The notes beneath the pieces were generated by a model. That model was given only the letters and a program-made list of their open reading frames with translations. It had not been told where the DNA came from and made no database searches. From Methylomonas sp. LL1 (GTDB taxonomy: Bacteria; Pseudomonadota; Gammaproteobacteria; Methylococcales; Methylomonadaceae), in NCBI RefSeq assembly GCF_015711015.1, contig NZ_CP064653.1, forward strand, positions 1,116,001 to 1,180,000: 64,000 bases of DNA. Direction: 5' to 3'. The position numbers and the translations under genes were made by a program. Shown one piece after another: positions 20,717 through 53,339 of this stretch. Each line of letters starts with the position of its first letter. Positions within the stretch are counted from its first letter, which is position 1.

Positions 20717-20820
20717 TGGGTTTTATTAAGGTTAAGTCTGCGTTAGCAGTTGATTTTGTCTGCAAAAAGCCGCGAAGCGAACAACTGCCGAAGGCACGCT
20801 TTTAAACCTCTTACATACCG

Positions 20821-21098
20821 CCCGAGCATCGCAGCTTTTGTCGAGACAAATCGGCAGGACAGCCGATTTACATGCACAGCACCCGAAGGGCGAGGTACAT
20901 GGATGTACCGAGTGATTTGCCCGAAGGGGCGCGGCAGGGATGCCGCGCGTTTTACGTAGGGGCTGGGAAGCTCCTTCGGAAAACCCTCGACAAAAGCGAG
21001 AAGCGCAGGATTCAGCGGCATGTGGGTGGCCTTTTCTTTGGATACTTTCTTTTGGCCGCGCAAAAGAAAGTATCTCGGCTGTCGGTCCGAGAACCGAC
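20821..21098. repeat. Multi-hairpin intergenic repeat, copy A
   Basis: This element fills most of the 666-base gap between the GFA and GST genes. It contains a chain of inverted repeats: an outer pair GCTTTTGTCGAG (20834-20845) with CTCGACAAAAGC (20986-20997); AAATCGGC/GCCGATTT (20848-20869); GGTACAT/ATGTACC (20894-20909); GCGCGGCA/TGCCGCGC (20929-20948); AGGGGCT/AGCTCCT (20958-20975); a 14-base arm pair starting GATACTTTC (21041-21074); and GTCGGT/ACCGAC (21081-21098). A second copy lies at 53.05-53.26 kb. Its stems differ from this copy by paired changes. Open frames across it on both strands look like artefacts of the repeat. Confidence 0.8.
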
Positions 21099-21208
21099 TT
21101 CTAAATGGCTTCGCGTAGCGTTACTGATCAAAATATATCGGCGGAAGCAATTCAACTACTAACGCACACATAGCAATTATTAATCCGGCCTAAGTTATCA
21201 CCGGTATT

Positions 21209-52783: not shown

Positions 52784-53050
52784 GGCTACTCCGGTTTAAT
52801 GGCTTACTCGTATGATGGGACAAACCTTACCGAAACGGATTGGGTTAAGAAGGATGTCCTACGGGTAAACAAATTAATGCAATCGCTTTAACGGCGCGTC
52901 ACCCGTTCGGGTGAAAAAGGAAAATAATGAAGAAAAATTTGCGGATGGCGTTTTTCCACCGGCATAAATCCGAGGGTGTAGCCAGCGGGGTGCGATTCAA
53001 ACCGAGGCGGAAATATGCCGAAGGCATGGGGATAATCCCCTTATATCGCC

Positions 53051-53259
53051 CCGAGCATCACAGCATTTGGCGAGAATAGCCAGTCAGGGGAGCGGCATGG
53101 ATGCCGCTCGTTTTCGGAGGGGCTTGGAAGCCCCTTCCGAAAACCCTCGCCAAATGCGAGAAGCGCAGGATCCAGGCGGTATTGGGGCGGCTTTTTCTTT
53201 GGTTGCTTTCTTTTGGCCGCGCAAAAGAAAGCAACTCGGCTGTCGGTCCGAAAACCGAC
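53051..53259. repeat. Multi-hairpin intergenic repeat, copy B
   Basis: The second copy of the repeat at 20.8-21.1 kb, in the 556-base gap between the efflux operon and the LuxR-type gene (52784-53339), which holds no gene. Arms: GCATTTGGCGAG (53063-53074) with CTCGCCAAATGC (53146-53157); GAGCGGCAT/ATGCCGCTC (53090-53109); TTTTCGGA/TCCGAAAA enclosing GGGGCTT/AAGCCCC (53111-53143); a 14-base arm pair starting GTTGCTTTC (53202-53235); GTCGGT/ACCGAC (53242-53259). Two short hairpins of copy A are missing here. Stems differ from copy A by paired changes. Confidence 0.8.
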
Positions 53260-53339
53260 TTTTAAATTGGCTTCGCGCTAGCGTTTCATTAATTTACGCC
53301 TCAATTTGAATCGCACCCTAGCCAGCGAGGGAGGGAGGA

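Follow-up and report, generated by a model that had tools for sequence, protein, structure and literature searches.

Two copies of a structured repeat

The window, a 64,000-nucleotide stretch of the Methylomonas sp. LL1 genome (4.92 Mb in two contigs; G000 below), contains two copies of an element of about 260 nt that recurs dozens of times in this genome and displays two pseudoknots and a predicted triple helix. From P1 to the 3′ hairpin, copy 1 occupies positions 20816 to 21120 and copy 2 positions 53037 to 53284, both on the forward strand. A covariance model built from 25 copies of the window genome (R1) matches them at 20883-21099 (165.1 bits) and 53039-53260 (242.7 bits), respectively. 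The predicted architecture begins with a branched 5′ domain closed by P1, within which P2 encloses P3, P4 and P5; downstream of this domain are a triple-helix pseudoknot, a second H-type pseudoknot and the 3′ hairpin.

In copy 1, P2 spans 20834-20997 (arms 20834-20845 and 20986-20997; helix 4 of the 128-row alignment discussed below) and contains an inserted module of about 70 nt (20846-20915), hairpin P4 (20929-20948, GCGCGGCA..TGCCGCGC) and hairpin P5 (20949-20984, helices 7 and 8). The triple-helix pseudoknot, assigned from covariation and the register of its triples, lies at 21027-21073 (stem S1, 21027-21031/21054-21058; loop L1, 21032-21039; stem S2, 21042-21053/21062-21073), and is followed by the second pseudoknot (21074-21098, helices 11 and 12) and by the 3′ hairpin (21108-21120), which is less well paired (85% of cells in a 25-copy alignment). 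Copy 2 repeats this order on the same strand, with P2 at 53063-53157 (arms 53063-53074 and 53146-53157) enclosing P4 (53090-53109) and P5 (53110-53144), the triple-helix pseudoknot at 53188-53234, again assigned from covariation and triple register (S1, 53188-53192/53215-53219; L1, 53193-53200; S2, 53203-53214/53223-53234), the second pseudoknot, supported by covariation, at 53235-53259, and the 3′ hairpin at 53270-53284.

An earlier note on this DNA had described two copies of a multi-hairpin repeat whose arms differ in compensating pairs, and both copies and every arm it quoted are present. The outer arms, which form P2, read GCTTTTGTCGAG/CTCGACAAAAGC in copy 1 (20834-20845/20986-20997) and GCATTTGGCGAG/CTCGCCAAATGC in copy 2 (53063-53074/53146-53157); the 14-base arms read GATACTTTCTTTTG/CAAAAGAAAGTATC (21041-21054/21061-21074) and GTTGCTTTCTTTTG/CAAAAGAAAGCAAC (53202-53215/53222-53235); and the GCGC/GAGC hairpin reads GCGCGGCA/TGCCGCGC in copy 1 and GAGCGGCA/TGCCGCTC in copy 2. 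Features that had escaped that description are the 70-nt module, present in copy 1 and absent from copy 2; the inclusion of the 14-base hairpin in a pseudoknot, with a second pseudoknot downstream in both copies; and the terminal inverted repeats and perfect 9-bp duplication at the ends of copy 2. As judged by eye, both copies represent a sub-type distinguished by additional 5′ hairpins. Neither has a partner element within 2.5 kb, and single copies such as these may be solo or remnant units.

The ends of copy 2 are formed by GGGTGCGATTCAAAC repeats at 52988-53009 (forward strand) and 53297-53318 (reverse strand), which are flanked by the duplicated sequence TAGCCAGCG at 52979-52987 and 53319-53327. 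The same repeats, with an 8-bp duplication, occur at locus L014, and this terminal-repeat sub-type is found at seven sites in the window genome, among them window positions 52979-53327, L014, L010, L018 and L347. Terminal inverted repeats together with a target duplication imply at least one past movement of the sub-type as a MITE-like passenger, and copy 2 probably last moved in this way, with its own terminal repeats. The hallmarks of a MITE are present only in the sub-type of copy 2 and L014 and were not found for the main form of the element. Inspection of the orphan site L347 by eye revealed no autonomous transposase for the sub-type. The hairpin module of about 70 nt varies in position, residing after the 5′ arm of P2, between P2 and the first pseudoknot, or inside the second pseudoknot (window 20846-20915, L029, L253, L255, L256, L245, L246 and L274), as if parts of the element had been shuffled.

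Covariation and the folding strand

The predicted fold of copy 2 has a free energy of -114.5 kcal/mol (z = -7.33), a value equalled by none of 200 shuffled sequences. The complement of this copy is also stable (-108.7, z = -7.30), and folding energy alone therefore cannot identify the strand that folds. RNAalifold predicts 73 pairs from 25 copies of the window genome, 32 of which show two-sided changes; with the pseudoknots added, 97.3% of 1,924 base-pair cells can pair, two-sided change is seen in 38 of 77 pairs, and none of 500 shuffles reaches the covariation score.

A larger alignment was assembled from 141 hits, reduced to 128 distinct rows, from Methylomonas and from other loci scored strongly by R1. 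Here pairing holds in 98.0% of 8,912 cells and two-sided change is found for 49 of 71 pairs, with 1,096 two-sided cells against a shuffled mean of 298.8 and a covariation score again unmatched in 500 shuffles. Such counts are inflated by relatedness, which is retained in controls with partners slid by one to three columns; only 43-52% of cells pair in these. This alignment was fitted to R1 and is biased towards nested helices. Two pseudoknot helices are absent from R1, and for these 98.0% of 1,386 cells are paired, with 218 two-sided cells compared with 62.7 after shuffling; the number of their pairs with two-sided change (seven) is not above shuffles.

Mismatches across the helices are lopsided, with 275 G-U and only 32 A-C combinations, indicating that folding takes place on the strand written here, whether as RNA or as DNA. 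By comparative evidence, then, this repeat folds from one specific strand and carries a triple-helix pseudoknot that covaries. The proposal that selection acts on a folded RNA or DNA form is supported by the covariation, which persists in the larger alignment as that proposal demanded; the choice between RNA and DNA is undecided. Its stated alternative, a decayed coding gene, fits poorly because the same fold occurs in many unrelated contexts. The trinucleotide GGA is present in several of the element's loops, and a CsrA/RsmA sponge was considered without being tested.

A predicted triple helix

Within an H-type pseudoknot, the 14-base arms form stem S2. A segment 5′ of the arms (GTCGCC in one variant) pairs and covaries with the loop of the hairpin (GGCGAC) to form S1, leaving between the S1 segment and S2 a pyrimidine loop, L1, such as TTTTCTTT. 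When TTTTCTTT is laid parallel to the 3′ purine strand of S2, AAAAGAAA, U.A-U and C.G-C triples are possible at each position. In the window genome, where there are only two main variants, 199 of 200 triples fit this parallel register; no other parallel shift among those tried exceeds 125, and no antiparallel one exceeds 152.

Across a wider set, seven combinations of L1 and purine strand fit over the whole run: TTTTCTTT/AAAAGAAA, TTTCTTTT/AAAGAAAA, TTTCTTT/AAAGAAA, TTCTTT/AAGAAA, TTCTTTTT/AAGAAAAA, TTCTTTT/AAGAAAA and TTCTCTTT/AAGAGAAA. Over these variants the register is matched in 241 of 260 hairpins assessed, and 40 of 56 distinct combinations match, whereas 5,000 shuffles average 16.4 matches and never exceed 26. 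The loop thus behaves as expected of a triple-helix pseudoknot, lying in parallel register with the purine strand and covarying with it, and this register is the signature of a predicted major-groove triple helix, for which the evidence is comparative and no structure exists. Counting against it, the last loop of the pseudoknot has only 3-4 nt with which to cross a 5-bp stem, which is short relative to classical geometry. The register can be read and tested from sequence alone, and no Rfam 15 family matches the element.

Tolerance of G-U pairs and triple-helix pseudoknots are both usual in RNA, and they favour a reading in which the element works at the RNA level, stabilising, processing or insulating the mRNA of an accompanying gene or the next gene of an operon. 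That reading, to which we return below, is possible, although we regard it with some doubt. Against it, the terminal repeats and target duplication of copy 2 show movement of at least one sub-type as DNA.

Distribution

A BLAST search with copy 1 returns 53 matching pieces in its own genome, and copies aligning across the core share about 76-91% identity with that copy. R1 finds 46 matches there at E up to 1, including 41 at E<0.001. Of 41 genomes searched, 31 have R1 matches; within the genus, and counting the window genome, the figure is 23 of 25, and among the order's other families it is 8 of 16. The family is therefore also present in other Methylococcales, and it extends to Betaproteobacteria. 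Among named bacterial genomes, at least 119 stretches carry a core pattern; they come from groups that include Thiobacillus, Vogesella, Silvimonas, Curvibacter, Gallionellales, Sideroxydans and Rheinheimera, and R1 matches all 12 genomes taken from this list (2 to 122 matches each), which had been chosen by the pattern.

The window yields no Rfam 15 match at gathering score, and the nine matches in six loci at E up to 5 all fall below it. The element is not assignable to a known Rfam family (HEARO/omega RNA or others), with the betaproteobacterial copies lying outside the scan. RsmW was rejected as an identification, its three weak hits inside elements (E 0.2-2.3) scoring 24-29 bits against a threshold of 52. 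One 311-base query found no match in plasmid and phage records. Four IMG/VR stretches carry the pattern (L034-L037); by eye, a triple-helix pseudoknot without the 5′ domain is present on one contig (L036:10240-10310), L034 apparently lies inside a reading frame, and L035 and L037 are partial. No account of the fold or of the cassette layout described below was found in the literature, a weak negative in that subscription papers were mostly outside coverage.

Outward-facing pairs and their cargo

Many copies are arranged in outward-facing pairs. Among 152 copies in three Methylomonas genomes (G000, G010 and G012) there are 56 neighbours within 2.5 kb, of which 46 are divergent, 2 convergent and 8 tandem, whereas about 4 neighbours in total would be expected from random placement. 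Divergent pairs account for 92 of the 152 copies; the other 60 are not so paired. A member of the Neisseriaceae (G049) has 18 divergent, no convergent and 5 tandem neighbours among the 52 matches listed. Pairing is not universal, since in Silvimonas, with 122 matches, there are no close neighbours among the 40 matches listed. At L270:1964-3037 and in L272, two elements on the same (reverse) strand, with a 91-aa ORF between them, stand ahead of the main cargo, as though one cassette could be stacked on another.

Most often a pair encloses a single accessory ORF. With a minimum length of 75 aa, ORFs are present in 30 of 34 pair spacers and absent from four, and the longest ORFs of these spacers fall into 29 clusters; the ORFs were called mechanically, and not all need be genes. 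Pfam matches at E up to 0.001 were obtained for 8 of 30 cargo proteins (KAP NTPase, AAA_21, LprI, GNAT, DUF2971, DUF4145 and two under the curated cut-off) and for 3 of 10 further ones (AAA_15, ankyrin, and DUF3800 in a Nitrosomonadales pair, L144), so that 29 of the 40 scanned have none. Three of 10 cargo proteins scanned with PADLOC match models of candidate defence families, namely PDC-S20 (5e-154), HEC-04 (1e-50) and an AriA/GajA-like ATPase (3e-19), the last being a broad ATPase class; the genes concerned are at L221:6985-8391, L232:1472-3316 and L282:1297-2862.

Different cargo at two operon sites

Two intergenic sites illustrate how the enclosed gene varies. Between hyaE and hupH, identified by Pfam and compared in 19 loci with both flanks, elements are present in 15 loci, as an outward pair in 13, and absent from four; the spacer of L281 measures only 306 bases. 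The right-hand copy, directly before hupH, is kept in 14 of the 19. The main cargos comprise 11 families, with members shared by L266 and L273, by L268 and L272, and by L271 and L274, while L267 holds a fragment of the L266/L273 family. The cargo protein of the window genome at this site was found in none of 36 other genomes of the genus, and in 13 of these 36 a single alignment extends from hupH across the right-hand element, covering it completely or almost completely.

Between trpD and trpC, elements occur in 11 of 17 loci, the six loci without them having spacers of 74-276 bases in five cases and 579 in L247. The longest cargo ORFs are unrelated in all seven loci compared. Two loci (L244 and L245) hold remnants of a RAYT gene that is intact in L025, and the differences at this site are therefore due in part to decay and replacement of one older insert. 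Comparison across genomes thus demonstrates, for two fixed sites where elements recur, that the gene they enclose is not the same from species to species.

Conceivably, the elements are ordinary dispersed repeats that serve only as homology arms, their cargo being swapped by homologous recombination between elements and the inverted layout merely preventing loss by looping out. The identity of core-matching copies within the window genome to copy 1 and the persistence of flanking copies as cargo changes would both suit this explanation, which we nevertheless think unlikely: it leaves the retention of pairing despite sequence change, the strand asymmetry and the triple register unaccounted for. 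Moreover, within-locus identity remains high along the element (0.6-0.95) and drops at its cargo-side border to 0.24-0.55 in the adjoining 55 bases, compared with 0.24-0.29 between loci. The right-hand trp copies reach background there and the hya copies less so, and at the coarse resolution of this comparison no breakpoints were seen inside the element.

The same two sites bear on an RNA-level role. By hand count, the longest cargo ORF is co-oriented with the operon in 20 of 21 cases over both sites, which places a sense copy of the element between the cargo and the next gene; with outward-facing copies, a cargo transcript would acquire a downstream sense copy in either orientation, and spread could then be left to ordinary recombination. 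Elsewhere the orientation does not conform, as 8 of 11 single copies between same-strand genes of the window genome are antisense (by eye, on a rough ORF map). The 5′ flank of the element is not conserved between loci, and there are neither expression data nor a promoter scan to support a transcript.

A model for cassette exchange

Folded repeats paired outwards around genes that differ between species suggest an undescribed kind of gene-cassette border. What comparison establishes is the fold, the folding strand, the covarying pseudoknots, the triple register, the outward pairing of many copies and the different genes enclosed at the two operon sites; the remainder of the model is inference. 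The element of about 260 nt would act as a folded single strand, in which the pyrimidine loop of the first pseudoknot serves as a third strand along its own stem. The folded strand would be recognised by a protein, and a unit moved or exchanged together with the enclosed gene would be delimited by two outward-facing copies. A RAYT (HUH/Y1) transposase gene inside some Methylomonas units may be the mover there.

We consider the chances about even that the elements are structured borders of exchangeable one-gene cassettes, with the mover not shown and the choice between RNA and single-stranded DNA unresolved. Against this reading, no mover has been demonstrated, and outside the RAYT-bearing Methylomonas units its identity is unknown. 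In addition, inverted ends do not fit single-strand excision of the IS608 type. More tentatively, and with somewhat less than even confidence, the data could reflect an undescribed system of cassette exchange in Gamma- and Betaproteobacteria, in which an unidentified enzyme acting on the fold exchanges single-gene cassettes at fixed chromosomal sites, the cassettes lying between outward-facing triple-helix borders of about 260 nt and in some cases holding candidate phage-defence genes. Should the borders indeed be what drives exchange, this would account for the turnover of single accessory genes at fixed operon sites where no transposase is visible, and would provide a way to list such cassettes.

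The link to RAYT genes is partial. Tyrosine transposases of the RAYT type are the cargo of L017 and L025 (the latter below the Pfam cut-off but 49% identical to the former), and in seven genomes (G000, G005, G006, G007, G010, G012 and G017) a RAYT gene has a same-strand element about 60-90 bp downstream. However, 27 of 34 RAYT genes inspected have no element within 2.5 kb, and no RAYT was detected by PF01797 or profile A3 in G048, G049, G050 and G058, which contain 7, 57, 15 and 2 elements, respectively. A universal partnership is rejected on account of these element-bearing genomes, leaving RAYT as a candidate mover or frequent cargo rather than a defining part. Three further RAYT-type genes of the window genome (L217, L218) likewise have no element within 2.5 kb. 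As a separate observation made by eye, many elements are preceded, 25-60 nt upstream, by GTAG-type REPs whose GTAG end points towards the element (for example in the flanks of L011, L013, L015, L017, L024 and L025).

Comparison with known systems

In integrons, attC sites stand in direct orientation, and in p-dif modules the p-dif sites are inverted. The elements described here depart from integron cassettes in orientation (46 divergent versus 8 tandem neighbours) and in their much longer borders. They share with attC cassettes, so far as the accessible part of the source describes these, the placement of single accessory genes between recombination sites and a site that is read as a folded strand (PMC2727003).

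Telomerase RNA also contains an H-type pseudoknot with a loop strand along its stem. The SAM-II, SAM-V and guanidine-III riboswitches do likewise, according to those portions of their descriptions that were available. Relative to these RNAs, the present element is a dispersed repeat, its triple is deduced from covariation only, and it has no known ligand or gene-control role.

The BRE of Bordetella is a dispersed, mostly intergenic betaproteobacterial repeat that adjoins transcribed sRNAs; it is 75-91 bp long, averages 69% GC and is often tandem, unlike the element of about 260 nt (PMC3110155). A partial relation is not excluded, the BRE sequence not having been compared.

REP, BIME and REPIN sequences are, in the accessible text, dispersed intergenic palindromic units, often in opposite orientation and sometimes beside a RAYT gene (PMC2817692, PMC3116915), all of which are traits of the present element too. 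REPs are given there as 20-40 bp (PMC3733652), whereas the element is a multi-helix structure of about 260 nt with two pseudoknots and conserved ends that lack GTAG; the GTAG REPs near it appear by eye to be separate, adjoining repeats. A similar layout is that of TIRtrons, or TIRYT genes, in which long terminal inverted repeats unrelated to GTAG REPs flank a tyrosine transposase gene; some of these terminal repeats form moderately abundant families, often as dimers (Di Nocera 2013, PMC3733652). L017 and L025 look like TIRtrons, and a transposase between inverted repeats is also present in L253 and L254. Most element pairs inspected hold no RAYT, and the layout is absent from most pairs and from G048, G049, G050 and G058. 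The portion of that article available describes no multi-pseudoknot fold, triple helix or exchangeable cargo, and does not mention Methylomonas, Thiobacillus or Methylobacter (PMC3733652). Movement by a RAYT has yet to be shown, but by analogy the proposed cassette borders resemble the TIRtrons and REPINs of the RAYT transposase world.
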